Source of the DNA: Zygnema cylindricum
Lineage: Eukaryota > Streptophyta > Zygnematophyceae > Zygnematales > Zygnemataceae
Length of the DNA stretch: 35,485 nt
NCBI GenBank assembly: GCA_037447655.1
Contig: JBBHKE010002131.1
Span: 1-35,485, forward strand
Direction: 5' to 3'
Under the pieces are notes generated by a model. The model did no database searches, had not been told where the DNA came from, and was given only the letters and a program-made list of their open reading frames with translations. Of this stretch, positions 1 to 27,673 are shown piece by piece; position 1 is the stretch's first letter, and each line of letters starts with the position of its first letter. Made by a program: the position numbers and the translations under genes.

Positions 1-2247
1 ATCGGCATACCTTTCTCTCCTCCCCTTGCTCCACAAATCCTTCGGCTTCTCGCATGAAAATTTCCTCTTCGAACTCTCCATGTAGGAAGGCCGTCTTGAT
101 GTCCATCTGATGCACTTCCATGTCTTCTGCTGCCGCCATACTGAGAAGTATTCGAATAGAGTGAAACCTGACGATCAGAGCAAAAGTCTCCTTGTAGTCA
201 ATTCCCTCTTTCTTGGTAAATCCCTTCGCCACTAACCGAGCCTTGTAGCGCTCAATGGTGTTATCCAGGTTAAGTTTGAATTTGAATACCCATTTACACC
301 CGATTAGTTTCCTATCAGGGGGATAGTTCACCGATTCCCACGTCTTGGCTGTCATAATCGAAGCCATCTCCTCATTAATGGTTGTCTTCCACTGGTTCCT
401 CTCAGGCCATTTCATCGCCTCACCATAAGTTTGGGGTTCATCACGATGAGACAGTTTGGTTGCCTTGTTGTTAACTTGTTTCTCTTGCAGCCTTTTGCTG
501 TTTTTTCTTCCATCCTCAAACTTTAATGCTGGAATGGATTGCTCTTGTGGATTCTTTCACATAGTTTCGACTTCTCCCCTATCCCTTAATCCCTTGTCTA
601 TTTCCACCACGTCTTCCTCTTCGGTTAGACTTGGCACTTGGGATTCCACGGCTGAATCCTCCTCGGTTTGATTTGTACCTGCAAGATCATCACCTTGTCA
701 AAAACCTAGATAGTTAGGAAGCTCAAAGTCATCAGAATTTTATGACTCAAATCTGATTTTGACTGTCTTTGTTTGCTTAAAGGGATCTATGGATTTCCCT
801 TTATCCATGAATACTAGATGTTGTACTATGATTATATCTTCTCTTTTGAGATCATAGACTCTATATCCTTTTACATCTTCATCATATCTTAGCAGATATA
901 CTGGTTTTCCTTTCGGATCCAGCTTCCAATTTGACTGATCTGTGTCTAGGCTGAATACTTGACTACCAAAAACCTTTAAGTGTGAAACATCTGGTTTTCG
1001 GTCGGTCCATCTCTCATAAGGAGTTTGGCTTTTTACTGCCAAGGTAAGAAATCTATTCTTGAGGTAATTTGCACAGTTCATAGCTTCGGCCCAAAATCTC
1101 TTTCCTATTTTTTTATCTGAGAGCATACTTCTACCACTATCACTTAGTGTTCTATTTAACCTCTGGGCTACACCATTGTGGTCAAGATTTTCAGCAATTG
1201 TCATTTGGTGTTGCACTCCATCTTCTCTCAAAAAATCCTCAAACTGATTGGAGGTATACTCTCCCCCATAATCACTTTTTACTCTCTTAATAGGGGTTTC
1301 ATGAAGTTTCTCACACCATGCCTTATATTCCATACAAACATGTGGGGCCTCTGATTAAAAAAAAAAAACACACTTTAGAGTAATGAGACCAATTGTTAGT
1401 GATTGTCATCATAAAACTTTTACCACCAAGTGAGGACTTCCCCAAATATCACTGTGTACCAAGTCTAACACTTATTCCCCTTCATAAATGACTTTATTTG
1501 GGAAGGGTAATCTGTGTGCTTTACCTTGAGCCCAACCACTACAGTCACTTAGGTTTTCACTTTCTCCGAACTAAATTCCTTCCACTATTCCCATCTATTT
1601 CATTTCTTTCAACTTTTCTAAATGCAAATGTCCAAGCCTCTTATGCCACAACATAATATCATGATCACCAACATAGTAAAGTTTCTTTTTTTCATTGCTT
1701 AAGTTCAGCCTAAACATTCGTTGGCTACCTTTTTCAGCGGTGAAATAAACTTCCTCCTCAAAACTAGCAGTAAAGGTTCCCTTCCTAGTGCTAGTCTCAA
1801 AACCCTTATCGTCTAACACATATGTCTAGATGAGGTTTTTGTTTAGATCAGGAATAAAAAACACATCAGAGAATGCCATTAAGGATGTCTTTCCCTCCAC
1901 TAAGACTTTCATATATAATGATCCTACCACAGTAGTAGTGACTACCCTCCCATCCCCATTCTTTATCTCTATGGTGGGAATCTTTCTCATCTAAGTGAAC
2001 AAGTGTTTATCCTAACACATGTGCATGGAGGCACGGGAAACCACAATCCAACCTCCTTCACCTTTGAAACCTCCAAAAGCACTTTTCTGCTTTCGTGGTA
2101 TTTCGACCTCGGTCATCGCTTCCAACTCTTCATCCAGCAAGAACTCACCCTCATCGTCCTTGGATTACGCTTGGTGTACCATAGTCACAAGAGCCTTTTT
2201 ATTTCCCTTTGGAGGTCCACCGATTTGCCCCTCCTTTAAGCGAAGTC
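1..2247 (-). pseudogene. Copia element A pol remnant (protease, integrase, start of reverse transcriptase)
   Basis: Decayed Ty1/copia Pol, read from high to low coordinates. The protease region (about 2000-2240) matches the intact copy at 30091-30720, but the catalytic D-S-G triad reads V-S-R near 2030-2045, so it is dead. The integrase zinc region lies at 1595-1819 and the integrase core at 740-1333. That core keeps the second catalytic Asp in 'KSDYGGEYTS', but the family motif NEVAERLN reads NGVAQRLN, losing the catalytic Glu. Stops follow near 740 and 690. From about 510 down to base 1 the frame is open again and encodes the reverse transcriptase N-terminus ('GCKWVFK', 'ERYKARLVAKGF', 'QMDIKTAFLHGE'). 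It then runs off the window edge before the YVDD box. Position 1 corresponds to about 28288 in element C. Family assignment is secure by alignment to C. Confidence 0.9.
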
Positions 2248-3152
2248 GATTAGCTTAGTGCACTCTGCCATATAGTGCACTGGTTTCTTACAAAAATGAC
2301 ACAAACCCTTGGGAGCCCTTGGTCCAAACTCCTCGGTCTGGTTTTACTGCCTCCCCCATCCATAATCTCCGACCGGTTTCCTAGAATCATAATTCTTCCA
2401 GTCGATATTAGCTGCCAAGGCTTGCCCACTTTTTCCTCCCATTTGGATCTCAATGGTGTTCTCCCAAACGAGAATCATCCCTACCACTGAATTCCATATC
2501 CACCTTGAGATTGGCAAGTCATGCATACGGTTGACTATATTCTCGAACTCATCTGGGAACTTCATGAACAAGCAATTAACCTTCATCTTCTTAGTTTCAA
2601 CCTATCGAGCAGTCTCTAGCTCCATGAAAAGTGTTGCGAGCTCATTACAAAAATCGAACATCTTCCCCCCTTTGAATACATATGCGTTAATTTTATGATC
2701 AGCCAACTGTTATTGCTGAATCGTACCACTTTGGTACATCTTTATGCCCTCTCTGCCTGCAAATGAGGAGATGCAAGCCCTTGAGTAAGATGGCGGAGGA
2801 TGAAGTGTTTTGCCACCATATTGTTCTTGTCCCAGGTATCAGTATTATTCTCCTTATTCCTCGGAATAGGTGACATGAATGCCAAATCGGTTGCTATCGG
2901 TGTGATTGTCTCTTTCTCCTTTCCTTTGTCCACCACATCCCCTTCTTTTGTGTCCTCTGTTGGAGATGCATCTGCATCTATGGTGAATCTACTTCCTTTA
3001 AACCCTGGAGGGATGCCAAGACTGGGTGGACGCCTCACCTGTCCACTCACTATTCCCCAAATCCTTTTCTCACATAGATCTCCTCTCATAATGCTCTCGC
3101 ACTATATAAAGATTGTTCCATTAAAGATGGGCACCCTAGAGGGTGGGCCCAT
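2248..3152 (-). pseudogene. Copia element A gag remnant
   Basis: Capsid/nucleocapsid gene of element A. The likely start is the ATG at complement(3152..3150), giving M-G-P-P-S-R-V-P, and this ATG lies inside the primer-binding site. A stop appears after 'NGTIFI', where element C has a tyrosine. The 2742-3089 stretch holds the N-terminal Gag ('CEKRIWGIVSGQ'), and 2344-2586 the later part ('MKFPDEFENIVNRMHDLP'). A CCHC zinc knuckle, 'CHFCKKPVHYMAEC' (CX2CX4HX4C), is readable near 2264-2310 in another frame, so at least one frameshift separates them. It is co-linear with element C gag. Non-functional. Confidence 0.85.
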
Positions 3153-3156
3153 AACC
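3142..3156 (-). other. Primer-binding site of element A (half tRNA-iMet type)
   Basis: The plus strand reads ggtgggcccataacc, directly abutting the LTR that begins TG at 3157. It equals the anticodon arm of plant initiator tRNA-Met (from memory), so the element RNA would pair with an internal tRNA fragment, not the 3' CCA end. Drosophila copia is primed this way. It is identical to the site of element C. Confidence 0.8.
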
Positions 3157-4030
3157 TGGAACTCTGAGACCTCCATTGGCCCTTTAAGTAAGCAGCTCCT
3201 TCAAAGCCTCTATGATAACCTTGACCCCTTTGTGTTTCAACAAAAAAAACCACCACCTTGGCAGTCAAAAGCTTTGACCACCTCCACTCATGTGAAGGTA
3301 AGACTCCCCTAAGTTGATAGCAGGAAGAATCTTTGAATTTTCTCCATTGAGAAGTAAGTTTTGGAGGGTCAAAATTTACCTTTTGTACAAAAGCTCTCTT
3401 GGAGAGAGGGTCATATCTTCCATATTTTCTTAAGTCCTATCTCTCGCTAAGACTTTATCTACTGAAGTACGGCACCAATCAAAATACTGTGTCGCATAGA
3501 AAGGTACAAGTGGAGGTATACCTTCTATTTGGCAATTGTACGACATGGCAAACCAGTTGACACATTTCATATCTAGATTCATTCTTGTAATCCTCGAAGA
3601 TGTTGTTATCCAATGCGGTCGTGCCACGTGTCAATCGATGTGGCGATGACCGAAAACCACCAAAATCTTATTCCGCGATCTCGGCATCTTTCACAACTGT
3701 CCAATCAAAATCGGGTTTTAATCGTAGCCGTCATAAATTGTTGCGCGATATATATTTAGCTTTCAAAATAAAATGCCCGGTATCCATTTTGGAACCTTTC
3801 TATACTCCGTACTTTAGAAACTTGTATCCATGCGCGACGTCTATAGTTTCACTTTAATGAATTAGTTCACGCTTCACAGTTTATATATTTGTCAAACCCT
3901 ATATGTTTCAGCACCGATCCTAGACTATAGGATAAAGCTACCGTCTGTTTCAGACTTGATGGACGGCAGGTACCAGGATCACATCGTAGGTCGTCAAGTA
4001 TATTTTGGTATATCTACCAAAACCTACCAC
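3157..4030 (-). repeat. 5' LTR of copia element A (distal end not resolved)
   Basis: Starts TG at 3157 next to the primer-binding site and aligns block by block with the LTRs of element C. Shared landmarks are 'gacctccat', 'ctctcttggagagaggg', 'gccacgtgtca' with 'gatgtggcgat', 'gatcgtagccgt'-like sequence and 'ggcaggtaccaggatc'. Divergence from C is much greater than between the two C LTRs, so this is an older or separate subfamily. A tRNA-like block lies at about 3921-3990 on the plus strand. Similarity fades after about 4000 and I could not find the expected ...ACA terminus, so the outer end is approximate. Confidence 0.75.
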
Positions 4031-5141
4031 CTGTCTCTCTATCTCGTAAGCAGCATTATCATGCCGTATTACGTCGGCGCAATTAATTATTTTTAAGCAC
4101 ATGGAAATGGTCATTCGAATGGGACGCCACACTATTTTAAACGTGGGTACGTTTCAGTGACGACATGGCCGTACAAATTCTAGACAGAAGGCGTGAAACC
4201 CGCGGACGATTTGGATTCCATACGCGAAATCGACAGTCGCCGGAATTCCACGAACGAACTTAATTTGCCGGCCGGAATTTCCACGAACCACTTTGAGTTT
4301 TCGTCTTTACAACTGGTGACGTGAAATGTCGATCAACATAATTTACACGTACCACCTTTGACACGAATGTGAATCCACGGCCACAAAGGATGCAAAGGAA
4401 CGGACAATTCGGATTCAGTCTGCACACGGCGACGCAATTGGTTAATTTCAAGTCGTGGACCCTTGGAGGTCGCACGCATTCACATGTAGCGTAGGAAGGG
4501 TTTTTATCCGCAAGTTGTAGATTTTGTAACGTAAGGCATACGATTATACTCGCCTATTGGTCAGAATCCAAACTAGGAGAAAACACCTACATAAAACGCA
4601 TGCATTCGTAGTAAGGTAGACTCTCAGCTATAAACTTTGTACTTAGCGAATTTTAGGTGAATTCTGTGCTCTCAATTTCAAGAGCACACGAGTTCTCTTT
4701 TTGGAAGATTTAACCTAAACTTTTATTATTTTCTTGTGAAATTGTCAGGACAGGTTTAGTGACTATTTTTGTGGTCATTAAACATTATGCTGCCTAGCTC
4801 GCTCTCACCTTTCTTTGTAATCTGCCTTCTAATTTAGTCTACGCGGCTCACGCCGAAGCCTAACCGATTTCCGTTCACTTCTTCTCTCTTCATATCAAGT
4901 GGATAGAGGCTCAGTTTTCTATCTCAAGTTGTTGGTGAACCCTAGATTGTGATTGGACTGTTTTGGGTTTGCTTTGTGGTTGTTTGGTGATAGTGGATTA
5001 GGGTTGACTTTTTTTATTTGTTTTGTTTCAGTCTATGTGTTGTGATATTTAGGTTAAATATTTATTTATTGAAATCTTATAAGGAGTATAAACTGACCAA
5101 GGAGCCTAGTGGCTATCCGTTGGCTTAATATTCCTGTGCTC

Positions 5142-5211
5142 TTGAAATTGTCTCTTTCTCTTCTATTTTTTGCAATTTGAAATTGTCTCTTTTTCTTCTA
5201 TTTTTTGCAAT
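5142..5211. repeat. Two-copy tandem repeat, 35-bp period
   Basis: The unit starting 'ttgaaattgtctcttt' and ending in a tail like 'ttttttgcaa' occurs at 5142 and again at 5177 with one difference. A partial third unit ('ttgaaattgtcagttttt') follows near 5240. Confidence 0.85.
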
Positions 5212-5503
5212 TTGACATTTTCAGTTTTTCTCCATAATTTGAAATTGTCAGTTTTTCTAAGTTTCTTTATTCCTTGTGTCAATTGGTTGTTCTGTCTAGT
5301 TTTTGTTAATTTGTCTGTATGTTTAGATTTTTGCTATGCTTTATTTTCATTTTATTTGTTGTCTAGTTTGTTTTTGAGTTGTTGAATCTGAGATTGCTGA
5401 ACTGTCCGGTATCGTTTTCTCTTCTTTCTTCCTTCCGAATTAACTCAAAATAACACCTAGCAAACTTAAACAAATAAAAACTTACAAAAAAAAAAAACCC
5501 TTA

Positions 5504-5505
<2 letters not shown>

Positions 5506-5568
<63 letters not shown>
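5506..5568. repeat. (AT)n microsatellite
   Basis: About 31 uninterrupted AT dinucleotides, preceded by a short poly-A and 'cccttaag'. Simple repeat in the non-coding stretch upstream of the gypsy gag. Confidence 0.98.
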
Positions 5569-5570
<2 letters not shown>

Positions 5571-6617
5571 TTGCACGAATTATCACATAAAATTACCATT
5601 GTTTTATAGTCGGGCAAAGCGTGGCATAGTGTTGATACGCGTGCCCTAACAGGCAACTAACTAAGTTGGCAATTGAGATGTGGTGTCTACTCGACAATTT
5701 GGAGTGGAGATAGTGGAGCTGATTCATTTTTGGGAGCTCTGCAAAACTCCGGTTGGAGCAAACAACTGCAGTTCACCCTTGGTAATCACCAGATCGCTAA
5801 GAGTGGTTTGTAAGTTCACGATGCCTTACGGGTGCCGGCGTGTGTCAGGATAGTTGTCGATTGTTTAGAGGGTACGTGAGTGGATTGGGTCCATCTGGAC
5901 CTAATTGTATTGAGCATTTGCACTATCCACGCTTTCCATGCTTTTCATCTGGCCGTGAGTGGCCTTGTGTTTTCTCTTGTTGTCTGTTTGGCATGGAATT
6001 TTATTGTTAGATCTGGTCGTTGGTGGCCTTGGATAGAACTATTTTCTGCATGTTAAGCTTTAGATCTGCACCTCCGGGTGTTTTTTTAGCAATTTTTCGC
6101 CTTTATAGATCTGGCCTTTTAGCCTTGCCCACTCGCTTGCAGTGTAGAGGTTTTGGTAAAAGTGACCTCTTGAACTACATCTTGCCATCGTGGCCTTGTT
6201 AGAGACTCTTTGAGATTGTTGCCTACGTATGTGGTATGGTTTGGCATTTGTAGCACCTCGTATAGGGCGTATCCATTAGCGGATTAGTTGTTATCTCAGT
6301 CATATTTATGCCCACTGATTAGGATAATCTTGACCACTTATACGGATACTACACGTAGTGGTGGAACTTTCTGGTCATCAAATTTCGATCAATCAAATTT
6401 ATCAAATTCGGTTCCTTTGACATTAAGTCTTTTAATTGAATCTATAGCGTCCTCTACTCGTTCAAATTTAACCACAGTCTCATCTTTGTCATTCATACTT
6501 TCCACGCTATTTGTGGAAGAGGTTGATAAAGAAAGGGAACCCGATTCAGATTTCCTTTCTTTTAGGTCTCCGTTAGCACCGATTCAGGCTTTCAATCCGA
6601 CCAACTCGTCTCTTTTG

Positions 6618-7702
6618 ATGGCCTCCACATCGGAAGGCACTCTTGGTAAACTCTAATTTTGCTTTTCCGGAATGAAGGATACTATGAGTTTATCTCATTT
6701 TCGAATGCAATTCGACACTGAAATGCGAGATCTAGCTTTCCGTTATCAAGATAGATTTGACATGCGGGTCGTTTCCTCCTTTCTCGGGCGTTACCTTCGG
6801 GGGTCTGCCCTTACCTTATATTCCCGCAAGTATGATGTCATACTTGCGATGACTAAATATTCTCCACAATTCGCTGGTACGCATGAGGTCATAGGTCAAG
6901 CACAAATTCCAAATCAAGCTGCTATTCCCAAGGTCTTAGATGCGCTTGGCAATGTTTTTTACCCGGCTGAGGCGGAGGTTCCCCACCAATTTGCCATTCA
7001 GCCCGAGCCGCCGTCCCCGCACGACACAAGATGACTATTCCGTTTCCAGACCCTCTCCCCATAATGTCTAAATTGTTATAAGAGGAGTATCGCATGCAAA
7101 ATCCTGACCAAGTTAAGGAATTAATGAATTTTGAGCGTAAACCGAGCGAAACTGCCCCCGCTTTACGAGCCCGCATGGAGACCTTGCGGGAAACGTTACC
7201 CGATTTGATATCAAATGCCGAAGCTGTCCAGAAGTTTGTTGGACAGTTTCCTTTCCAGTTAAAGAAATTTATTCAAAACCATCTTACCCAAACATATGGT
7301 CTCAAATTTACGTTCGACCAGGCAACTCAATACGCCGTAGAATACGAGATGACGAATTGTTGGTGGGAGGCCCACGATCGACCAAAAACCCCTCAAAAAG
7401 AACCTAACCCTTTCAATTCCCCAAATCCTCGTAACTTGGGGCCAAATAATCGGCCACCAAGGGTCCTAGCCATGGGGACCCATCCAAATCAACCATCCAA
7501 TCGGATTTGTTTCCGATGTGGCAAGATTGGGAATGATGCTCAGATGTGCCTTGATAAATCTGCGACTTGTACACACTGCATACAGACGAGCCACTTTGTG
7601 AATCGTTGTCACATGAAAAACCCTAAATTTTCATATCAAAATCAGATTCGAAATGGTGGCATACAAGCTAGATCTGTTAAAGAAGTCCAACCTGTTAAAT
7701 AG
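6618..7702 (+). pseudogene. Gypsy Gag remnant with two zinc knuckles
   Basis: Likely start ATG at 6618 ('MASTSEGTLGKL'), with an in-frame TAA at 6654-6656. The frame then continues into 'MSLSHFRMQFDTEMRDLAFRY', a retrotransposon-Gag-like segment, up to 7034. A frameshift near 7040-7090 moves to the 7094-7702 frame, which holds the capsid C-terminal region ('ALRARMETLRETLPDL', 'QNHLTQTYGLKF'). Two nucleocapsid knuckles follow. The first, 'CFRCGKIGNDAQMC', has Asn where His is expected. The second, 'CTHCIQTSHFVNRC', is a perfect CX2CX4HX4C. A stop at 7700 ends the frame. The 7727-8119 stretch is probably the linker to protease, with several frame changes. Confidence 0.8.
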
Positions 7703-8106
7703 CTAAAAAAAAACTCTCCACTTAAAGTGTCTTGGAGAGAAAAAGAAAGAGAGGAAATGCAAACTCAAATGGTCGTTATGATCAAAGACCAATTTGCAGC
7801 CCTTATGGCTCAAATGAAACCGCCGACTCACCTAACTGGTATGGCTCGTACAGTTGTCCACCTTCCCACGCTAGCTGGTCGAGTTTTACGATATTCAACC
7901 ATTCAAAAGCGGGCAACCACGTTTGACAAGTGGACATTGGTCACAATCACGAGGGTAAACTGTCTAGAACACATCTACCATTATCATTTTCTAAAGAAAC
8001 CACAACCAATTTGCCCAAAACAGCTTCCACCATCACGGCTGAAGCACTCACAATTCTTGACCGCTCTATTCAGGACATCCATTAGGTTAAAGAAAAATTA
8101 TGTATT

Positions 8107-8660
8107 TTGTCTACTATGATTTCCGATTCACCCAACCTAAAAACTACGGTCACATCCATCCCATTTGCAGCATTACAGGCTTTACAAATGAATTGTAATC
8201 TTGACGCTCTTAGGCCTATCTCTACCAACGAGTGTAGTTCACTTGACCCACACATTAGTTTTCTAGATAATGGGAACGGTGCATTTTCAGTCAATGGTGT
8301 CATACCGTAATTACCACTTATGGACACCGGTGCAAAACTAGTTATTTTGGGGTCATCTTTTGCACTGAAACTAGGTCTGACAGCTGATAAACTTCAGTCC
8401 ACTTCCACATGTTTACTCACCTCACCGGAAACAACCGAACCAGTTTTGCGTATTACAAAAGATCCACTCTGTTTTAGGTTTCAAAATGGTACAGAATCTG
8501 ATTTTGCGGAAGTTTGTGCTCACGCATTGGTCACCAAATATATTGATTACGAGTGTTTAGTGGGGCAAGATGTGATTTTTAGAGTAGGAGGCGGCGTTGA
8601 TATGTACGATCAGAATTTTTCTTACCGTCCTACCAGTTATCCGGAAAAGAAAATCTTTCT
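8107..8660 (+). pseudogene. Gypsy aspartic protease
   Basis: Retroviral-type protease domain of the gypsy polyprotein. The catalytic motif D-T-G-A is intact at 8323-8334 ('MDTGAKLVILGSSFALKLGL'). Upstream, in the frame from 8107, lies 'NGNGAFSVNGVIP', the expected N-terminal strand, ending in a stop at 8308-8310. The C-terminal part contains 'DYECLVGQDVIFRVGGGVDM', the conserved late strand of gypsy proteases, followed by 'YDQNFSYRP'. The downstream frame stays open into the methyltransferase domain, so the two were parts of one polyprotein. Confidence 0.8.
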
Positions 8661-8961
8661 CCCTCTAATTTCAACACGCCAACCAATACCCATTATGACT
8701 CACGCATCCCAATTTGTCCCTGCTTATTCTGGAAATTCAGTGGGATTTGAAAATTTTCAATCTCTTTCCGCAGAGGAAATTCTGCCCGACAGTCCTTCTT
8801 TGCCTGAACTTTTCGATAATCCAGGTTTTATAATTGATTCTCGCGAGTTTGATCACATCTACAAACACACACTTCAGATTCCTTTATCGAGGGTTCCACC
8901 TCTTCCTCTTATTTATGTAGATCCTTCCGGTTTTCTTCCCATTAATTGGAAACCAATTCAG

Positions 8962-9707
8962 GTCAAACCTCATCAAGATGGTCTAGTCATTTTAGACCTA
9001 TTTGCAGGCATAGGTACCTCTCTACTCTCATGCCTTTGCAACACATTACTTATCAAGCAGTTCTACACAGTTGACACTAACCCTTTAGCTCGAAAAGCCC
9101 AAACACATCACTCTAATCTTTTACACGGACAATATCCACATCTTTTCCCTAAATCTGCCTTTGCTCACATGAGTACAACCTTACCTCAAGATATTTGTTT
9201 GATAGGTAACCAACACCTTCTCGATGTGGAACCAATCAATCTTCTCTTTGCCAGTTGGGAGTATCAACGAATGTCACGAGCAGGCAAAGGTCTAGGCTTA
9301 GCTGACCCTCGCACTTTGAATTACTTCGTATGGTGCATTTTTTGCAATCATTTGATAGACCATTGGGATATATTTTGGAAAACGTGACAGTCTATAACGA
9401 TCATCGACTTACGGTGTTAGCTGATTACAAACGCATAGAAGCATTAATTAGTCCTCCTCTTATCATTGATGCCGCTCGCTACGTGTCGTTAGCTCATCGG
9501 ACCAACTTGATTGATATTGAACGCCTTAGAGAAGGAAATCTTTCAGTAAGACTTTTTTTTACAGTTATCCAGACTGCACTTCTTCTATTTCACAAAGTCC
9601 AAGCATGCCTGCACCGATATCACCCACCGAATTAAAACATCAACGTCTCAGGTCAACCACTAAAAGTTCCCCTTACTCTAATGTCTTATCCCCACTCTCA
9701 CGCTTTT
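8962..9707 (+). pseudogene. C5 cytosine DNA methyltransferase, N-terminal and central part
   Basis: Catalytic domain of a cytosine-5 DNA methyltransferase inside the gypsy polyprotein. It transfers a methyl group from S-adenosylmethionine to cytosine. Motif I (SAM binding) is 'LDLFAGIGTSLL', with the Asp codon at 8995. Motif II is 'YTVDTNPLARKA'. The motif IV region reads 'SWEYQRMSRAGKGLGLADPR': the catalytic Pro-Cys is replaced by Glu-Tyr (codons 9259-9264), so this copy is dead. A frameshift near 9360 leads into motif VI, 'YILENV' (ENV at 9378-9386), and then a motif VIII-like 'SLAHRTNLID'. The last stretch before the insertion reads 'VPLTLMSYPHSHAF' in another frame. The domain is cut at 9707 by element B and resumes at 13963. 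Assignment rests on four ordered motifs. Confidence 0.88.
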
Positions 9708-10832
9708 TGAAATTCCATGGGCTCCATTGCCCACAAAATTCGCAGATCCAAAAGAAGCTAATCTAATTAGTGCCGACTCCAAGTTGATATAAACCCAAAT
9801 GAATGACCCCTTGACAATTATAATCCCAATATACCTTCACCGATGTGAAGAGAAGACCTTCCGTGTGCTCGGTTCCACCACAGAATGAAAAGCTTAAAAA
9901 TGTGTTTTGGACAATATTCCCCACTTTGACTTTCCAACTCAATAAGTGCCACCCTATCACGCAATGACTCTGACCGACTACACCTTTGTGTAGCTTGGAC
10001 TCCCTTGATTCCGTAGCAAAAAGAATCACTGAATTTGCTCACCCGAGCTGTAAGTTATGGTTGGTCAAAGATGACCTTTATAGTTACAAGCTCTCTTAGA
10101 GAGAGGTACCCAAATATCACTAAGTCTTAGTCTGCCTACTCACGACTACCTACTACTAAACCCTAGTCCAATAGGAACACTGTTTAGTACAAGAAGGTAC
10201 GATAGTCGATGTACTTATTGTACGACCATTGTACAATAGGGCCTACAAGGTGATATTTGCCAAATCGAGAGCCATAGTTCCTCTTCCCATCTTCTCCGGT
10301 ATCAATTAATGTGGCGCCACGTGACGCTATCCTCAAATGCCGCCGAAATCTTATTGTGGGTGGCGGTTGTAATGGTGGCCATCCGATCAGTTGTATTTGT
10401 ACGGCTTCGATTCGCTTCCATGAATTAATTGATTAATGCGCGTTTTTGTTAGTCTGTTGCGAATTAGTCATTTGGATCAATAGAAAATTATGCGTGAAAC
10501 ATTTCATGTGTATTGTTTCGTTAGTGCCTTAATGGATAAGGTGTGCGACTACACAGTGTTTTGCAGACCATGGTCAAATCTGGCCAGAGGCAGTATTTTG
10601 CTAAAACTAGTAAAACATCTTCTAATTCATTCTGCCTATTTTGCTACAACTAGTAGAATATCTTATAATTCATTCTGCCTCTTTCTAAATGACGCAGCAG
10701 CCATGGCCTACCTTTGGTCCTCTCTTTCTCTTTACATTCTAACTAAACTATAGAATTGAACTATTAATTACCTTTTTTCAACACTCTATTTATTTTTCCA
10801 ATACAGACCTAGAAAGTACATAAATTTCAACA
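9708..10832 (-). repeat. 3' LTR of element B
   Basis: TG at 9708 and CA at 10832, 1125 bp. Aligns with 12781-13962 through 'cccacaaaattcgcagatcc', 'gcaaaaagaatcactgaatt', 'gtggcgccacgtg' and 'gccatggcctacctttggtc'. It carries a private partial duplication near 10600-10680 ('ttctaattcattctgcct' and 'ttataattcattctgcct'), about 37 bp. A G-box CACGTG lies at 10318-10323, overlapping the palindrome gtggcgccac (10311-10320). Confidence 0.9.
10515..10599 (+). other. tRNA-like block with Pol III box A and B motifs in LTR B
   Basis: On the plus strand (antisense to the element) 'gtgccttaatggataagg' resembles the D arm/box A of arginine-type tRNAs. 'tggtcaaatctggcc' follows at box B spacing, then 'cagaggca', which partly pairs with 'gtttcgt' at 10515, and a TTTT run at 10596-10599. 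The other LTR copy has the better box B, 'ggttcaaatcc' (about 13743-13754). The anticodon loop is too long for a working tRNA, so this is a degenerate tRNA-derived sequence, not a tRNA gene. Confidence 0.5.
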
Positions 10833-10849
10833 CTCCTCTTATTTTCTAG
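10833..10849 (-). other. Polypurine tract of element B
   Basis: The minus strand reads ctagaaaataagaggag immediately before the LTR TG. This is the expected plus-strand primer site and is nearly identical to that of element C. The leading 'tag' is the position of the pol stop codon in C. Confidence 0.8.
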
Positions 10850-11197
10850 TCTTCTTTCTTTTCAACTCCCAATAAACACACATTTTTTTTTCTTCTCTTT
10901 TTCTTCTTTCTTTTCTCCTCAAAAAACTTTAAGTGAATACCCTCGTATTTAAAAAAGTGTATTAGATGAACTGAAATAATAATTACACCACACATATTAT
11001 TTTGCATGCCGCTTTTCATAAATTCGAGAAAAGATTTTATCCACCTCATCTCTTTTCCATCCACACTAAATCCAATTTCCCTCTGTCAGTTCAAATAGCC
11101 AGCCCCATCACCAATCTGCAACACACACCCAGATGCTAACCCTTTTACAGACACACTTTCCTAAATGCAATCACTCCCATTAGTGATGTCAAATCCA

Positions 11198-11395
11198 TTA
11201 CCCCCCAAATTTTCCAAAAAGTACAAGTGTCCCCACTAAGTTCCTCATAAGATCTACGTCTTTCGTACTCATATATTTATCCATGATACTCACCCCATTT
11301 TTTGAACTTTCCTCACTCTCTCCCATGGAATTCTTTCCGCTATCACTTTCTATTTTTATTCCCAACAAAAATTTCTCCTCACCTAAACCTTTCAT
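11198..11395 (-). pseudogene. Reverse transcriptase scrap in element B
   Basis: The segment 'EEKFLLGIKIESDSGKN' aligns with 'EAKYLLGIQVERDQKRK' of element C reverse transcriptase, and 'MRNLVGTLVLFG' with 'YRQVVGSLIYFM'. The sequence between them is shortened, and no YVDD box, RNase H or integrase is present in the element. It shows that element B descends from a full copia element by internal deletion and was not built from gag alone. Confidence 0.65.
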
Positions 11396-11530
11396 TAAAT
11401 ATTCATCTTCTCCCCTATCTTTTAAAACCCCCTCTAGATTTACTTCTCCCCTTTCCTCGGAATCCGTTGAACTCTCCCTTTCCGATCAGTTTTTTGTTTC
11501 CAAAACTTCTTTAAAATTATCCTCATTATT

Positions 11531-12776
11531 TTAATTTTTCCCTTTTTCAATTATAGATTCTAGATCTGACTTTCTATACTCCTTGACATCCACATCATGT
11601 CTAACTTCTTTAAGTACCTCCCTTCCCTTTACTTCTCTTATACCTCCAAAAGAACACTGTTGCTTTCGTGGAATTTCTGTGTACTTTTCTCTCTTCTCCA
11701 TTCTACCGATGTGGAGAAGCTCTAAGATTTCTTTATCCTCTTTTTGCTCTTTCCTTTGTTCCTTCTCATCCACATTCCAACTTCTAAGTTCTTCCAAACA
11801 AGGGCATCCTTCTATATAATGATCCGGTTCCCTACAAAAGAAGCAAACCCCCTTTTTCAAAGCTCCCATTTCTTTTACCTCTCTTTCCACCGAAGTTCCG
11901 ATAAGGTTTACCTTTGTCTTTCTTCCTCTCACCACGTTTCCACTCGTCACCCCCGTTCCTCTCATCACGCTTCGGCCAGTCACCACCAGCTGTAAATGCA
12001 ATCACCCTCTCACTTCCCCTACGAAGCTCCAAGGTGCTTTCCCTCACTAGAATTATCCCCATGGTAATGCCCCAAGTCCATGATGAGCAATCCATTCCGT
12101 GCATACGGTAAATGATGTCTTCGTACTCATCTGGGAGCTTCATGATTAGTGTATTAATATTTCTCACCTCAGATTATATATTTGCCGCGCTAGCAAGCTC
12201 AACATAAAGCGCAACTATATCATTGCAAAACTCTATCACATTACTTCCTTTATAAACATAGGCCTCTATATTTTATTTTACTAACTGCTGCCTCTATATA
12301 GTCTCACTCTTATAAATCTGAATTAGTGCTTCCCATATTTCAAAAGACTTGGTTAGACTTAAAAGAGTGATAGCTATGGACTTAGACACATATCTAAGTA
12401 TGAGATGTTTTAATATTGTGTTTTTATATTCCTTTATTTTTATGTCAGTTTCTTAAGTTTTAATCCCTACAAGTGGTACCGTAGCTGAGAGCCTAGCTCC
12501 CCTCACCATAGGTGTCATTTTTTCCTTCTCCCCTATTTCCCCATCCACGGCAAGGCTTTTCCCTTCACCTTCCGTTGCATATGAACTCCGGTTGATATTC
12601 TGGGCAGCCTTAGATGATTCTTCATAGTAAGCTCCTCCAAAGCCAGGTGGCGGACATCTCTCTTGTCCCGAAACAATTCCCCATAAGTGCTTCTCGAAAT
12701 GTAACCCCTCCATCGTAAACTCGTAATAAGTGAAGTATGATCCATCGAACATAGGCACCCTAGATGGTGGGCCCAT
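11531..12776 (-). pseudogene. Copia element B gag
   Basis: Gag on the minus strand. The start ATG at 12776-12774 is inside the primer-binding site and gives 'MGPPSRVPMFDGSYFTYYE', close to element C. The N-terminal frame runs to 12453 ('HLWGIVSGQERCPPPGFGG'). The middle part is at 11832-12167 ('IMKLPDEYEDIIYRMHG'). The C-terminal part at 11531-12001 holds a CCHC knuckle, 'CFFCREPDHYIEGC' (CX2CX4HX4C), then a Lys/Glu-rich tail not found in element C. At least two frameshifts and several stops break it. The acidic/basic tail may be a product of the deletion that removed pol. Confidence 0.8.
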
Positions 12777-12780
12777 AATG
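12766..12780 (-). other. Primer-binding site of element B
   Basis: The plus strand reads ggtgggcccataatg, 13 of 15 bases equal to the element C site (ggtgggcccataacc), and abuts the right LTR. The gag ATG is complement(12776..12774), inside the site. Confidence 0.7.
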
Positions 12781-13962
12781 TGAAAATTCTATAGGCTCCA
12801 CCGCCCACAAAATTCGCAGATCCAAAAGAGCCTAATCTAGATAGTGCCGACTCCAAGTTGATATAAACCGAAATGAATGACCCCTTGATAATTATAACCC
12901 CAATATACCTTCACCGATGTGAAGAGAAGACCTTCTGTGTGCCCAGTTCAACCACAGAATGCAAAGCTTGAAAATGTATTTTGGACAATATTCCCCACTT
13001 TGACTTTCACACTGAATAAGTGCCACCTCACGCAAAGACTCTAATAGACTACACCCTTGTGTAGCTTGGACTCTTTTGAGTCTGCAGCAAAAAGAATCAC
13101 TGAATTTGCTCACCCGAGCATTAAGTTATGGCTGGTCAAAGATGACCTTTATAGTTACAAGCTCTCTTAGAGAGAGGTACCTAAATATCACCAAGTCTTG
13201 GTCTGCCTACTCACGACTACCTACGACTAAACCCTAGTCCAATAGGAACACTATATAATACAAGAAGGTACGATAGTCGATGTACTTATTGTACGGCCAT
13301 TGTACGACAGGGTCTACAAGGTGATATTTGCCAAATCGGGAGCCATGGTTCCTCCTCCCACCTTCTCCGGTATCAAATAATGTGGCGCCACGTGGCATCG
13401 TGTGACGTTATCCTCAAAGGCCGCCAAAATCTTATTGTGGGCGCGGTTGTAATGGTGGCCATCTGATCAGTTGTATTTATACGGCTTCGATTCGCTTCCA
13501 TGCATGAATTGATTAATGCAGGTTTCTTTAGTCTGCTGCAAATTAGTCCTTTAGATCAATAGAAAGATATGCATGAAACATTCATGTTTATCGTTTCGTT
13601 AGTGCCTTAATGTATAAGGCGTGCGATTGCTGCAAATTAGTCCTTTAGATCAATAGAAAAATATGCATGAAACATTCATGTTTATCGTTTCGTTAGTGCC
13701 TTAATGTATAAGGCGTGCGATTACACAATATTCTGCAGACCCTGGTTCAAATCCGGCCAGAGGCAGTATTTTGCTAAAACTAGTAAAATATCTTCTATTT
13801 CATTCTGCCTCTTTCTTAATGACGCAGCAGCCATGGCCTACCTTTGGTCCTCTCTTTCTCTTTACATTCTAACTAAAATATAGAAGTGAACTATTAATTA
13901 CCTTTTTTCAATACTCTATTTATTTTTCCAATATAGACCTAGAAAATACATAAATTTCAACA
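12781..13962 (-). repeat. 5' LTR of element B
   Basis: TG at 12781 and CA at 13962, 1182 bp. It differs in length from the 3' LTR by a private 94-bp tandem duplication (13534-13721) and by lacking the roughly 37-bp duplication of the other copy. Contains gtggcgccacgtgg at 13382-13395. Numerous substitutions separate the two LTRs, so insertion is not recent. Confidence 0.9.
13534..13721. repeat. 94-bp tandem duplication in the 5' LTR of element B
   Basis: The unit beginning 'tgctgcaaattagtcc' starts at 13534 and again at 13628. Both copies end '...aaggcgtgcgat'. The duplicated block covers the tRNA-like box A half, so this LTR has two box A sequences and one box B. Confidence 0.9.
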
Positions 13963-14200
13963 CTTTCTGTGGTGATGGGCTCGGCGTGCTCATAAATATT
14001 CACACAGGCGGCCTAGATGAACCGACACCCACAAAACGAGAACACCTTATGCATTTCCTTCCCAACATTATTGCTGCACATGGTCTCACATATTGACAGC
14101 GCTACATCCTTTTAGGTTGGGTCATGGACCCTCAATCTCTCTCATTTGTCTGAGGCCTCGGATTTGCAGCAGGTCATTACGCACAAACCCATCCGTCTTA
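13963..14200 (+). pseudogene. C5 DNA methyltransferase, C-terminal part (motifs IX-X)
   Basis: Resumption of the methyltransferase after element B. The frame starting TGT at 13968 reads 'CGDGLGVLINIHTGGLDEPT', then 'KREHLMHFLPNIIAAHGLTY', a stop, 'QRYILLGWVMDPQSLSFV' and a second stop. The E-P-T...R-E...M-x-F-L-P block and the 'LLGWVMDPQSL' block are the expected target-recognition/motif IX and motif X regions of this methyltransferase type. They are co-linear with the part upstream of 9708. Two TGA stops break it. Joined with 8962-9707 the domain is about 330 residues, typical for a catalytic C5 methyltransferase domain. Confidence 0.8.
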
Positions 14201-14640
14201 ACTAGCTGGGGGGGGGGGATGCATCACCAATTTCTAAACACATACTTACACGATCTCTAGTCACCTTTATAAGGACACCTTCTTAATTTTTCCTCTTTCC
14301 ATCCCCTATAAAATCTTCTCTAGAAGTCACCATCTACGATTTTTTGAATCCTAGTCATATGTCATGGTCCATTCCGGCATATACTGCTGCCCAATCTACT
14401 CCCTCTAGTCATATTTCAACACCTCCTCACTGGACCGCAACCTTTCCTACTCGTAGCTAGCACCATTGGACAAACTAATTACAGGAAACACCGGTTGTTT
14501 ACTCATTAGGTCAGTCACTTATCGCGGATGAACAACTAGCTTTTTTACAAGCCATGGAAGCAATGTCGATTTAAGGTTCGGAAACTCCTAAATGGAAATT
14601 TGGCTCTAATCTCTCTTAATCTGAACATGATCTACTAAAC
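14201..14640 (+). other. Linker between methyltransferase and reverse transcriptase
   Basis: No conserved domain recognised. Broken frames encode Ser/Thr/Pro-rich sequence ('HISTPPHWTATFPTRS') and then 'LGQSLIADEQLAFLQAMEAM', which probably leads into reverse transcriptase. A run of 11 G lies at about 14204-14218, a likely frameshift spot. Confidence 0.5.
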
Positions 14641-14643
14641 AAA

Positions 14644-15560
14644 GTGATTCTGCAAAATATCGACGTTTTTGTTTTTTCTATGAATGATCGTGGTCGCCAT
14701 ACCACGTATAAAATGCCTATAGATCTCGAAGACGATCGTCATATTTTCAAGCCGAAACACCGCTTATCTGAAACAGAATGGGAATTAGTGGACCATCGTT
14801 GCGCTGAATTGGAGGATGCTTGCCTCATTTATCAATCAGATTCTACTTTTGCAGCACCCACTGTCATGCCGAAGAAAAAGATGTCGAATGAAACTTTACC
14901 GATCGTCGGATGTGCGGCGATTTCTGTGAACTCAATGCTAGAACGATACAAGATCGACATCTAATGCCATTGGTTGAAGAAATATTTGATCATGTAGGAG
15001 GCGCTAAATATTTCAATATTGTGGATTTACGACAAGGCTTTAACCAGATTGAAATAGAGGAGAATGATAGGCATAAAACCGCCTTTTGGGGTAGTGATGG
15101 TCATGGGAGTGGGTTGTCATGCCTTTTGGACTTAAGAACGACCACGCAGTTTTTCAAAAAGTAATGGATTCAGTTTTAGGTGGTTTCAAGTTTGCACGAT
15201 GTTATATAGATGATTTGATTATCGCCTCTGCCACAATTGAAGATCACGTAGCTCATATCGAATGGGTCCTAACTGAACTGAAAAAGGTCTTATTAAAATG
15301 TCATCCTACTAAATGTACTTTCGGGTCCGAGGGTGTGCCTTACCTTGGACATTTTATTTCCTCTAAAGGAATCACACCACTTGAAGCAAAAACCGAGGCT
15401 ATCAACAAACTACCAACCCTCGTTGATCTCACGAGTCTTCGAGCCTTACTATGATTAGCTAATTATTATCGCAGATTTGTCCCTAGTTTCAGCACTGTCG
15501 CTTCACCATTGAACGATCTACTAAAAAAAAAAGTCATTTTCGTATAGGGACCTGATTAGA
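14644..15560 (+). pseudogene. Gypsy reverse transcriptase
   Basis: RNA-dependent DNA polymerase domain in three overlapping frames. The first (14644-14964) has 'KPKHRLSETEWELVDHRCAE' and the fingers motif 'AAPTVMPKKK'. The second (from about 14900) has 'MCGDFCELNARTIQDRHLMP' and 'YFNIVDLRQGFNQI', the first catalytic Asp. The third (15119-15454) has 'MPFGLKNDHAVFQKVMDSVL' and the catalytic Y-I-D-D at 15203-15214, intact, then 'YLGHFISSKGITP' and a stop. 'NYYRRFVPSFSTVASPL' follows near 15465. Frameshifts lie near 14900 and 15095. Motif order and spacing are typical of Ty3/gypsy. Confidence 0.88.
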
Positions 15561-15577
15561 TTTTGGCTTTTTAGAAG

Positions 15578-16051
15578 TTGAAAGATGCCCTCTCTAGTGC
15601 TTCCATCCTCCGACCTCCTAATCACAAATTACCTTTCAGCCTACGAACAGACTTTGGAAAGCTTGGCATTGTGGCCATCTTAACTCAGCGTGAACTAACA
15701 GGAGAAGAATGCGTGGTTGCTTATGCAAGCAGGAGTAAGAATCGTGCGGAGTCAAATTACAGTAGTTATGAAGGAGAATGTCTGGCAGCAGTTTGGGGTA
15801 TTGTACATTTTCGTCAATACCTTTACGGAAAACCATTTACCCTTCTAACCGACCATCAACATTTACATTGGCTGATGACGAAAGATAAACTGTCAAGAAA
15901 ATTAGAGCGATGGCCATTAATTTTACAAGAATATGATGTTGAAATAATTCACCGTCCAGGATTACTTAGCCTGAATGTAGACTGCATTTCCCGAAATCCT
16001 TTGCCATGGACCACAAACAATGGAGTCCAGCAGGTTTCGATGACAACTTAG
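15578..16051 (+). pseudogene. Gypsy RNase H
   Basis: 157-codon open frame encoding the RNase H domain that degrades the RNA strand during reverse transcription. It contains 'LRTDFGKLGIVAILTQ' (first catalytic Asp), 'YSSYEGECLAAVWGIVHFRQ' (Glu), 'FTLLTDHQHLHWLMTK' (Asp) and 'RWPLILQEYDVEIIHRPG', the standard landmarks of the gypsy type. 'NVDCISRNP' near the end replaces the usual N-x-A-D-x-L-S-R. One of the few domains here without an internal stop. Confidence 0.88.
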
Positions 16052-16219
16052 CTTCTATGTCAGCAGGGTTTTACATCACACATTCTGTAGCTTCGTTGCT
16101 TGACTCCCGTTCTGCCCTAGATCCATGGCGAGACGGAGCACTAATTCTTTTCCTCTCCTCACAGACCTTCCGACTAAGGCACTACATCCGAGGAGGAGGA
16201 ACGAGTAAAGAAAAGAGCT

Positions 16220-17060
16220 AACAATTATCTTTGGCTAGGTGGATCGCTAGTTCGATTGTTAGCGGACAGTAGTCACAGGCACGTGCCTCGCCCGACTGAA
16301 CGCCTCTCGCTGATTGAACAAATTCACACCGAGCTGGGTCATTATGGGACCAAGCGCACCTTAAGCTTGGTGCAGGCACGCTATTGGTGGTTTGGGATGC
16401 AATCTGATGTCGCAGCGGTATTGCACAAGTGTGCAATATGTGATCGTCTACGTACCTCTTTTAGCAACCGACAGACTACCCTCCAACCATTACCCATCAA
16501 AGGGTTATTTTACCGCTGATCGTGCGATTTGACTGATACCCTTTCCCATATCACGGAGGGGGAAACAATATATAATGATCATGATTGAAAATTTCATCAA
16601 ATGGGTTCAAGTAGTAGCACTACCACACAAAACTGCAAAGCTCACCACCGCCGCTTTTATAGAACATGTCCTCATGAGATACGGCGCGCCAACCGAAGTC
16701 CTCACAGATCAAGGGACTGAATTCGACGGAGAATTCCAAGAAATGATAGATGACGCTCTCATTGACCATCGTCGAACAAGCCGCGATCATCCACAATCTG
16801 ATGGATTGGCGGAACGCGCAGTTCAGACGTTGAAGCGGGCATTACGCAAGCATTGCTTGTAAAAATATATAACACTGTGGGACGAGTCACTTGGCTATAT
16901 TGTCATGGGGTATCGAATGTCAGTACAGGCGAGTCTTACCAATTTCAGTCCATAATCTATCTTATTTGGGCGTCCACCCTTGTTGGGTAGGAATATCCAG
17001 AAAGCCGCAAGCTTTCCGCTTCCCTTACTATCTGACGGGGTTTTTCTGGAAGAACTTATT
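16220..17060 (+). pseudogene. Gypsy integrase
   Basis: The zinc-binding domain in frame 16256-16519 reads 'IHTELGHYGTKRTLSLVQAR' and 'LHKCAICDRLR' (HHCC). After a frameshift near 16510-16575 the catalytic core (16575-16862) gives 'IENFIKWVQVVALP', 'EVLTDQGTEFDGEF' (second catalytic Asp) and 'DHPQSDGLAERAVQTLKRAL' (catalytic Glu). The first Asp region around 16520-16560 is degraded. After a stop, 'LGYIVMGYRMSVQASLTNFS' and 'LFGRPPLLG' (16890-17000) are the conserved end of the core. The enzyme inserts element cDNA into the host genome, but this copy is broken. Confidence 0.88.
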
Positions 17061-17400
17061 AATAGGGCGTTGCTTTTTGCCTAAGAGATGCCCATCGCTT
17101 TTGACAACCTGCAGATCGCCCAGCACAAGGATACTTTGCGCTTCGCCACGACACGCATCGGCAGCTACCGGCCCCAGCAGAAGCCTTACCTAGTGGGAGA
17201 TTATGTCTACTTACGACGCTAATCCTTCGATACCTTATAAACAGATGTTTCACCTCATATCCTCCGAATTATCGAAGTTGCCATGAATGGCATGCTATGT
17301 CTTCAAGGAGTAGATACACGAACCTTTCGGGAGCATTCGAAGAACTACGCTCCATGTTATTTACCGAATCTCTTCAAGACATGGACCCTATGCGCATGCC
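17060..17400 (+). pseudogene. Gypsy post-integrase segment
   Basis: Frames at 17086-17225 encode 'AFDNLQIAQHKDTLRFATTR' and 'KPYLVGDYVYLRR', the SH3-like C-terminal domain of gypsy integrases. After broken codons, 'PHILRIIEVAMNGMLCLQGV' and 'TFREHSKNYAPCYLPN' follow (17250-17370). As I recall, this type of segment ends the integrase of some plant and algal gypsy elements just before a PHD finger. It may contact chromatin in the way a chromodomain does, which is inference. Confidence 0.65.
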
Positions 17401-17419
17401 TATCACTGAGACTAAAGAA

Positions 17420-17553
17420 TGCACACTTTGCAACCGAGCCGACGGAGAAACATCAATGTTCTGTGTGACCATTGCAACCAAGGATTTCACACGGATTGTT
17501 TGGTTCCTCCGTAAACTGTGGTTCGGGACGGTTATTGGTTTTGCCGCGGCTGC
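17420..17553 (+). pseudogene. PHD finger at the C-terminus of the gypsy polyprotein
   Basis: All eight zinc ligands of a C4HC3 PHD finger can be read if two frame changes are allowed: C-T-L-C from 17420, then 'CDHCNQGFHTDCLVPP' after a shift near 17457, then a stop, then 'DGYWFCRGCRE' (Cys codons at about 17542 and 17551). The Trp two residues before the penultimate Cys pair is the usual PHD core residue. PHD fingers bind histone H3 tails, often reporting lysine-4 methylation, so the domain could guide integration or the methyltransferase to certain chromatin. That role is inference. The broken frame means this copy is inactive. Confidence 0.75.
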
Positions 17554-17620
17554 CGAGAGTTACCAGTCGTATTCGCGAGCTCTTCGGCAGGCTAAAGAGT
17601 TGGGGGGGGAAATAAACTGA

Positions 17621-17939
17621 GCCTCATAGCTTCCTCTCCCACCTTACCTTTATTTTACTTATGATATGTTTATTTGTTTCTTGCTGCTTATACATATTCA
17701 TTTTCACTTGTTCTCTGAGATGTTCATGACTTTCTTGCTTATTTCGTTATCATTTATCTTTCAGCTGGATGTGTTGCATATTTATCATTTTTTTTGGCAC
17801 ATGCTCAACATTTCTCCCACCCTACCTATGTTCCGTCCCACTACCATTTCCACCATCTATTTCCCATAGTGTCCTTTCCTCCTTCCCATTTCCCCCTTCC
17901 TCTCCGTTTATCACGTCCCATGCTTCTCCCACTGATTGA
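17621..17939 (+). other. Non-coding gap between gypsy polyprotein and non-LTR element
   Basis: Pyrimidine-rich sequence with no supported gene. It opens with a purine run ('gggggggaaataa', about 17603-17616) that could be the gypsy polypurine tract, but no 3' LTR follows. The rest is probably 5' untranslated sequence of the non-LTR element that starts coding near 17940. Confidence 0.45.
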
Positions 17940-26078: not shown

Positions 26079-27126
26079 TGAAACTCTAAGACCTCCATAA
26101 GTCCTCAAAGTGGACAGCTTCCAAGAAGCCTCTAGGATAACCCTGACCCCTTTGTGTTTCAGCAAAAATAACTGTCACCTTGACAGACAAAAACTCTGAC
26201 CAACTTCACCCCTGTGAAGACAAGACTCCCCTGAGTCGATAGTAAAAAGAATCTCTGAATTTGCTCCCCTGAGCAGTAAGTTATGGAGGGTCAAAGTTGA
26301 CCTTTTGTACAGAAGCTCTGTGGGAGAGAGGGTCCTATCTTCTAATTTTTCTAAGTCATATCTCTCTCACAGACTCTATCTACTGATGTACGGAACCAAT
26401 CAGATTACAGTTCCGTACGAAAAAGTACAGCTGCCGGTGTACTTTATGTTCGGACACTGTACGACATGGCCTAAATGTCGACACGTGGTATGTCCGGATT
26501 CGCTCCTTTAATCCTCGGAGATGCCGCGCTCCAATGTAACATCGCCACGTGTCATCCGATGTGGCGATACCCACAAACTGCCGAATTCTTCTTCCGCGAT
26601 CTCGGCGCTAATTCCGGCCGTCCGATTAAACTCGTATTTGATCGTAGCCGTAATAAATACATGCGCGGTATTTGTTTCGCTTACGAAATCTATGCGCGGT
26701 ATTGATTTCTTATCCGTACCGCAATTCGTACTTTTACATACCAGATCTATGTATCCCGTTAACAATTATAGTTAAATGATATATCTTACGAATTATTGTT
26801 TAATTAATTATCGTACTATATAATGCGTAATACTACTTCTAGACTTAACGGCTAAGGCTACCGGCTAATTACTATCTGTCGGCCGGCAGGTACCAGGATC
26901 AAATCCAGTGACCGGCATATACCTTATAGTTAATTATCCCCTAACTAGTATAAATTTCCCATAAACCTCAGGATAGCCTAGGTAGCCATGGCTCTAGCTT
27001 CCTCTCCAATTTCTCAGTGACTGCGACAAGTTTGAGAGTTTGGAGAGAGAAGTTAGAGGTAGACTCCCTCGGCTTCTTTATTTCTATTCAGACCTAGAAA
27101 ATACTTTAAAACCATTAATTTCTACA
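26079..27126 (-). repeat. 3' LTR of copia element C
   Basis: 1048 bp, TG at 26079 and CA at 27126, nearly identical to 31480-32593 apart from one 66-bp copy-number difference. A box-A/box-B tRNA-like block is at 26841-26916 on the plus strand. An 8-bp inverted repeat atcgccac/gtggcgat at 26541-26568 encloses a G-box-like ccacgtgtca. Confidence 0.95.
26841..26916 (+). other. tRNA-like block with Pol III box motifs in LTR C
   Basis: 'gacttaacggctaaggc' resembles a tRNA D arm/box A and 'ggatcaaatcc' at 26896-26906 fits the box B consensus GWTCRANNC. A matching block is in the other LTR (32242-32318) and a diverged one in LTR A (about 3921-3990). It reads antisense to the element. It does not fold into a convincing cloverleaf, so it is a tRNA-derived or convergent promoter-like sequence. 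Confidence 0.45.
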
Positions 27127-27661: not shown

Positions 27662-27673
27662 GTATCTAAGGAC

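Follow-up and report, generated by a model that had tools for sequence, protein, structure and literature searches.

A decayed Ty3/Gypsy retrotransposon with a Dnmt3-type methyltransferase in Pol in the genome of Zygnema cylindricum

A stretch of 35,485 nucleotides from Zygnema cylindricum (contig JBBHKE010002131.1 of assembly GCA_037447655.1, positions 1 to 35,485; this whole stretch is hereafter the window) contains, at positions 4057-17810 of the plus strand, a single decayed copy of a Ty3/Gypsy retrotransposon that encodes a cytosine-5 (C5) DNA methyltransferase of the Dnmt3 type within Pol. The domains follow one another in the order gag, protease, C5-methyltransferase, reverse transcriptase (RT), RNase H, integrase and PHD finger. 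Elements of this kind are already known from Klebsormidium nitens, and the window holds a real, decayed copy of that known kind. We consider it likely, taking the evidence as a whole, that this is a dead member of a family in which a Dnmt3-type enzyme was captured once and moved once within Pol, with a PHD finger behind the integrase, and in which the enzyme would mark the element's own complementary DNA (cDNA).

The methyltransferase was located with a family-specific profile, A2, made from six genomic copies outside the window and run on the window's 669 six-frame stop-to-stop pieces of at least 30 amino acids each. The matches at E <= 0.01 are confined to the three pieces expected (8.6e-66, 7.5e-38 and 3.6e-10). 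Searching the window by tblastn with the methyltransferase domain of one relative gave scores of 218, 167 and 92.8 bits, against a peak of 24.6 bits for 50 shuffled control queries. Motif I (LDLFAGIG) lies at about 8992-9015 and the motif IV region at about 9250-9330; motif VI (YILENV) is in a different frame, within 9363-9707, and motifs IX-X are at 13947-14186. Speaking against the domain, the Pfam DNA_methylase profile gave zero matches to the window pieces, even at E 10. Thus, the profile check proposed in an earlier reading of this DNA from its letters alone (the sequence-only reading) comes up empty if taken literally, but is overruled by the family profile. Intact relatives exceed the Pfam cut-off of 22 bits (44.4 bits in family A, to which the window copy belongs, and 48.9 bits in family B), and it is through these relatives that the window domain is linked to Pfam. 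Direct protein searches with the decayed pieces of the window found no match, whereas those with long relatives as queries succeeded; with the decayed piece alone, a PDB search returned chance matches only and a viral scan none.

The window domains were mapped by tblastn with pieces of the polyprotein of C1344, a relative at locus L021. In eight window frames scanned with Pfam, RVT_1, RT_RNaseH, Integrase_H2C2 and rve were above the cut-off; the protease matched Asp_protease_2 weakly (16.2 bits, under the cut-off). The element is bounded by parts of a split direct repeat, denoted A and B, and LTR below stands for long terminal repeat and K2P for the Kimura two-parameter distance.

4057-17810, plus strand: whole Gypsy-Dnmt3 copy, from repeat A1 to the end of B1 (start of A and end of B placed through L021/L022 and L035)
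4057-5130, plus strand: 5' terminal repeat A1 (match to A2 of L035; ends before TTCCTG)
6207-7924, plus strand: gag, frameshifted (tblastn with C1344 polyprotein pieces)
7484-7660, plus strand: gag region with two CCHC-like zinc knuckles (tblastn; residues inspected)
8311-8880, plus strand: aspartic protease, MDTGA (tblastn, 260 bits)
8878-9327, plus strand: methyltransferase motifs I-IV (profile A2, E 8.6e-66)
9363-9707, plus strand: methyltransferase motifs VI-VIII in a shifted frame, motif VIII partly lost (profile A2, 7.5e-38; alignment)
9707-13964, no strand given: nested LTR element inside the methyltransferase (LTRs at about 9710-10834 and 12784-13964, K2P 0.089)
13947-14186, plus strand: methyltransferase motifs IX-X (profile A2, 3.6e-10; tblastn, 92.8 bits), the first ~18 bases being shared with the nested LTR end
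14671-15391, plus strand: reverse transcriptase, frameshifted (RVT_1, 57.2 bits; tblastn)
15389-15991, plus strand: RNase H (RT_RNaseH, 112.8 bits; tblastn)
16178-17372, plus strand: integrase with zinc-binding domain, DDE core and C-terminal part (Integrase_H2C2, 58.9 bits; rve, 35.8 bits; tblastn)
17417-17592, plus strand: PHD finger, frameshifted (tblastn with a C1344 piece, 64.7 bits)
17611-17810, plus strand: repeat B1, right behind a G-run that is probably the polypurine tract (match to B1 and B2 of L035)

The window copy is dead. Its methyltransferase is broken by a frame change near 9330, the codon of the catalytic cysteine (9262-9264) is TAT, for tyrosine, part of motif VIII is absent from the alignment, and motifs VIII and IX are separated by the 4.26 kb nested LTR element. 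The nearest relatives of this copy, L028 and L035 (89-91% identity), are continuous across the insertion point and lack the nested element, so that the nested insertion came later. The nested element itself has LTRs of ~1.1-1.2 kb, each with a tRNA-like stretch recognized by eye, and a Pfam scan of two of its minus-strand frames found no domain. As a possible trace of methylation, strong depletion of CpG was looked for and not seen (observed/expected ratio 0.63-0.95). C-to-T and G-to-A changes in the window lineage are commoner at CHG (31 of 213) and CG (24 of 238) than at CHH positions (48 of 908), a pattern that would be expected for decay in a plant-like, CG/CHG methylated state.

The sequence-only reading was right in recognizing a Gypsy element (RT, RNase H, DDE integrase and Gypsy-type domains are all present), a C5-methyltransferase between protease and RT (found by both profile A2 and tblastn), and a state of decay, which the frame break, the tyrosine at the catalytic position and the nested insertion document. 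The span it proposed, 8962-14200, stands in part: the methyltransferase is real, but about 9707-13964 belongs to the nested LTR element, and the retrotransposon occupies 4057-17810. Its description of the domain as lying in frame inside Pol does not apply to the window copy, which is no longer one frame.

The methyltransferase domain is Dnmt3-like. Among PDB sequences, profile A2 matched DNMT3A (5e-18), DNMT3C (3e-17) and DNMT3B (1e-14) best, and HhaI (1.5e-7), DNMT2 (3.9e-6), DRM2 (1.5e-5) and DNMT1 (0.48) more weakly; in contrast to DRM, the motif order is unrearranged. With a structure model of the relative P0039 (mean predicted local distance difference test score 68.9, mostly 84-95 in the domain), all 50 Foldseek matches listed comprised DNMT3 structure chains. 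The catalytic cysteine, the motif VI glutamate and two motif VIII arginines are conserved in 53 of 53 long rows (35 public ones and 18 from the genome, a few of the latter from duplicate places), a count that required at least 300 profile positions in a single frame per row and hence leaves out broken copies. The ratio of nonsynonymous to synonymous substitution rates (dN/dS) is 0.18 in one family A pair and 0.13 in one family B pair; between A subfamilies, dS is saturated and dN is 0.13-0.18, and the domain-wise values for the A pair are likewise saturated, that of the integrase being an artefact of a truncated frame. Thus, the domain is under purifying selection in the relatives. The ADD and PWWP companion domains of animal-type Dnmt3 were not found in the frames of four relatives that were scanned; protist and algal Dnmt3 likewise lack companion domains, according to the available part of a 2025 paper (PMC12344493). 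De novo methylation activity is putative for the family; the catalytic residues are kept in the relatives, and in the window copy, the cysteine is lost.

The window copy belongs to a populous group. The searched assembly comprises 352.8 Mb in 2689 contigs, and at least 123 Pfam DNA_methylase matches were scored (of 782 candidates). Two families are prominent among the fetched loci: family A, that of the window copy, has WECQG in motif IV and includes a copy that is a single frame of 2395 amino acids from gag to the PHD finger, and family B has WPCQG in motif IV. At least 89 RT matches were scored (of 4517 candidates), with a Pfam methylase match upstream, at a distance below 6 kb, in 21 of them. 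Twenty of the other 68, most of them selected for their long open frames, were inspected over 200 bases where the domain should lie; motif IV-VI sequence is present in 18 and unrelated sequence in two (C2304 and C846). Copies with a clean protease-RT junction, the observation that the sequence-only reading had named as evidence against itself, were thereby sought among 41 of the 89 RT matches, and none was found. The "old burst" it envisaged fits at most the subfamily of the window copy, with nearest copies at 89-91% identity. The family as a whole is not just old: long open frames are present in other copies, and the end repeats of one copy are identical over 911 bp. With at least 123 methylase and at least 89 RT matches, young copies beside old ones, selection, age and methylation context become measurable.

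A TAG codon lies between protease and methyltransferase in all 17 family B loci found (15 distinct places, including L024 and L026), and CAATT stands right behind it in 14 of the 15. The search pattern left the codon free and was built on the following bases, with two mismatches allowed; this biases the count for CAATT but not that for TAG. The pattern also matched two unrelated places, with CCT and ATG instead of TAG. Several of the 15 family B places are decayed. An amber stop conserved between otherwise open frames suggests a candidate case of programmed readthrough.

The arrangement of the repeats is clearest in C1344, with the order A1 (931 bp), open reading frame (ORF), G-run, B1 (about 243 bp), GC, A2 and B2. 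Here, a comparison of A1 with A2 over 911 bp shows no difference, B1 and B2 are 99.6% identical, A2 and B2 are joined without extra bases, and the outer ends, TG and CA, are flanked on both sides by TTGG. The coding region is not flanked by two complete LTRs, and as C1344 is A1-ORF-B1-A2-B2 and not LTR-ORF-LTR, we describe the element as a split-repeat variant with Gypsy domains. The inner junction, GACA-GC-TGTC, is a palindrome that recurs in L027 and L032, in an altered form in L035, and unchanged in L025 of family B. In the 40 B matches scored (of 389 candidates), classified from their coordinates, there are 21 cases of B1-GC-A2, 13 B2-like ones, five ending at or near GACA without A2, and one partial match; B-A without a preceding G-run is not among them. 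Nine copies had both ends read. Five of these (C1344, C2130, C54, C1093 and, read by eye, C215) show a 4-bp target duplication. Six of the nine are only about 1.2 kb long; recombination between A1 and A2 would leave such short A-B forms, which correspond to solo LTRs. In the window copy, the element closes with B1, with neither A2 nor B2 behind it; in C783, too, B1 has no A2 behind it, and in the C783-like copies C628, C2415 and C1234, the starts of A1 were not found where expected.

Split repeats of this form could also stem from a two-LTR circle (LTR = B-GC-A) cut by the integrase inside one LTR. The G-run just ahead of B1, the TG...CA inside B-A and the seamless joint of A2 and B2 would all fit such an origin, but it should also yield A-B-A-ORF-B forms, which are absent among the 40 scored B matches; we consider it improbable and rejected this model. 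In the scheme we favor, the ends of the DNA copy would be completed from the internal B1-GC-A2 junction with its palindrome, GACA-GC-TGTC.

The profile search of protein sequences, in which the 7995 candidates sharing most words were scored, yielded 51 listed matches, 43 of which carry the methyltransferase domain. The named sources include Closterium sp. NIES-54 (two proteins) and the chlorophyte Haematococcus lacustris; the eukprot label Mesvir1 presumably denotes Mesostigma. A Tanacetum protein among the 51 lacks the methyltransferase domain, and no protein named as K. nitens is among them. The enzyme occupies two different positions in the Pol of these relatives. It precedes the RT (methyltransferase-RT-integrase, MT-RT-IN) in the genome analyzed here and in P0003, P0006, P0016 and P0025 (P0042 shows MT-RT), and it lies between RNase H and integrase (RT-MT-IN) in 19 matches, with two more ending before the integrase. 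A PHD finger (PF00628) was detected in 21 of the 43 domain-bearing matches, some of which are fragments, and in none of the eight others; on the MT-RT side of the 51 matches, it is listed for P0003 only. In the genome, the Pfam PHD score is 38.1 bits in family A (C1344) and 17.5 bits in family B (cut-off 24).

Two side observations concern individual proteins. P0047, from H. lacustris, has an enzyme of the RT-MT side; if this is not contamination, the family extends beyond streptophytes. P0037, P0040 and P0041 end about 90 residues past the methyltransferase, as would be the case if RT had a frame of its own, apart from that of gag-protease-methyltransferase.

For the phylogenetic analysis, C5 enzymes from viral profile scans (2 and 33 loci) served as outgroup. 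In the methyltransferase tree (28 retroelement enzymes, 30 viral ones and DNMT3A), the retroelement enzymes form one clade (100/100), divided into a side that holds the RT-MT proteins (99/94) and one that holds the MT-RT proteins (92/88). A quicker tree of 66 rows again recovered RT-MT as one clade (99) and did not unite the MT-RT groups. The RT tree unites RT-MT in one clade (100/99) and gives the MT-RT side 81/41; P0042 falls outside this side, on a long branch with rows lacking the methyltransferase. The presence of the domain at two places, together with the weakly supported MT-RT side, might reflect two independent captures of Dnmt3, one lineage having acquired it ahead of the RT and another ahead of the integrase. 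We regard this as rather unlikely, given that the retroelement enzymes used form a single clade, that the RT tree shares the deepest split of this clade, and that PHD fingers occur on both sides. The simplest reading of the two architectures is one capture, which would have taken place in an ancestral element, and one subsequent relocation of the domain within Pol.

In the cycle that we propose, the enzyme would be released by the element's own protease. The co-packaged methyltransferase would then mark the new cDNA while it is being made or once reverse transcription is over, and the copy would thus enter chromatin pre-methylated; the DDE integrase would join it to the chromosome, and the PHD finger may help to select the target chromatin or to read it. 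Methylation of the element's own cDNA by the enzyme is what we infer; the idea of self-methylation rests on dinoflagellate enzymes, as presented in the main text of de Mendoza et al. 2018 (PMC5890265). Alternatively, the enzyme could act in trans, on host DNA or rival elements, in the role of a chromatin or counter-defence tool. The PHD finger that shares its polyprotein could direct it to nucleosomes, and the discussion in PMC5890265 leaves the role open; its fusion inside Pol, however, would place the enzyme with the RT, and we deem action in trans unlikely. Suggestions made for sister systems in the same text, namely that the domain protects the cDNA against editing by the host or against being sensed as foreign, or that its substrate is RNA, appear very unlikely here.

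Several observations weigh against marking of the cDNA by an enzyme captured once and inherited with a PHD finger in an integrating split-repeat element. In the yeast test described in the main text of PMC5890265, DIRS enzymes produced CG methylation and the K. nitens Gypsy enzyme produced none, a result that its authors consider inconclusive. The MT-RT side is weak throughout (92/88 and 81/41, and not one clade in the 66-row tree), the RTs without methyltransferase in the RT tree come from a search biased towards the methyltransferase, and the trees hold no plant or algal host Dnmt3 genes, which makes a second capture possible. No PHD finger is listed for P0006, P0016 and P0025, and that of family B is under the cut-off. 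Finally, four of the nine copies with both ends read (C1643, C1571, C1234 and C561) have no target duplication, nor do the window copy and C783.

The window contains other mobile elements. A Copia element occupies 26079-32593 on the minus strand (RVT_2, 282 bits; Pol_BBD; SH3_retrovirus; LTR K2P 0.031), and positions 3-3783, 79% identical to 28290-32103, are a second, cut Copia copy. At 25045-25482, there is a DUF659 match (85 bits), which we take to be, probably, a fragment of a hAT-type transposase.

The sequence-only reading had likened the element to the charophyte retrotransposons of de Mendoza et al. 2018, and this likeness is borne out. In a literature search on Dnmt3 Gypsy retrotransposons of Klebsormidium, only that paper was found (PMC5890265), and its finding is repeated, in the parts available, by a 2019 opinion paper (PMC6338049) and the 2025 paper (PMC12344493). 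Searches on PHD fingers with Gypsy integrases, on split repeats with integrase, and on methyltransferases in DIRS or Gypsy elements and Haematococcus returned no title, titles being what was screened, that we recognized as describing such elements. The main text of PMC5890265, figures and supplements aside, does not mention a PHD finger, readthrough or the target site. In the literature as far as covered, we found no description of the PHD finger, the conserved TAG before the family B methyltransferase, the TG...CA ends with 4-bp duplications, or the RT-MT sister clade.

According to the main text and a figure legend of PMC5890265, KnitGypsy-Dnmt3 of K. nitens shares with the Zygnema family the Gypsy domain set, a Dnmt3 in the Pol ORF with conserved functional residues and under purifying selection, and repeats like those of DIRS, in the order A-coding-B-A-B, which is found here in the relatives, the window copy having A1 and B1 only. 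The Dnmt3 motifs inside Pol are, in both, in unrearranged order. SymbioDIRS-Dnmt3 of dinoflagellates, as described in the same text, is similar in its Dnmt3 in Pol, its A-coding-B-A-B repeats and the coexistence of two domain orders, but has a tyrosine recombinase in place of the DDE integrase. DIRS, PAT and Ngaro elements share the A1-B1-A2-B2 split direct repeats, and elements of the DIRS group carry a putative methyltransferase domain of the adenine type, according to the available text of PMC4157794. Unlike these tyrosine recombinase elements, the Zygnema family has a DDE integrase (rve), TG...CA ends and 4-bp target duplications. To our knowledge, DIRS and PAT elements make no target-site duplication. 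Ty3/Gypsy chromoviruses carry a chromodomain behind the integrase; the family described here likewise has an extra chromatin-reading domain at this place, which is a PHD finger and not a chromodomain.

We raise, as a tentative and on balance doubtful idea, that methyltransferases ride on retroelements because of split-repeat copying, so that the adenine-type enzymes of DIRS, the Dnmt3 of dinoflagellate DIRS and the Dnmt3 of split-repeat DDE Gypsy elements would have converged. The enzyme would then serve a step specific to this cycle, such as the marking of free or circular nuclear cDNA, and the Dnmt3 writer and the probable PHD reader were perhaps co-inherited since before the streptophyte and chlorophyte carriers parted. 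Transposons that carry a de novo methyltransferase invert the idea of DNA methylation as a weapon of the host only, and split direct repeats in an element that has a DDE integrase and makes target duplications are tied less closely to the tyrosine recombinases than they had seemed to be.

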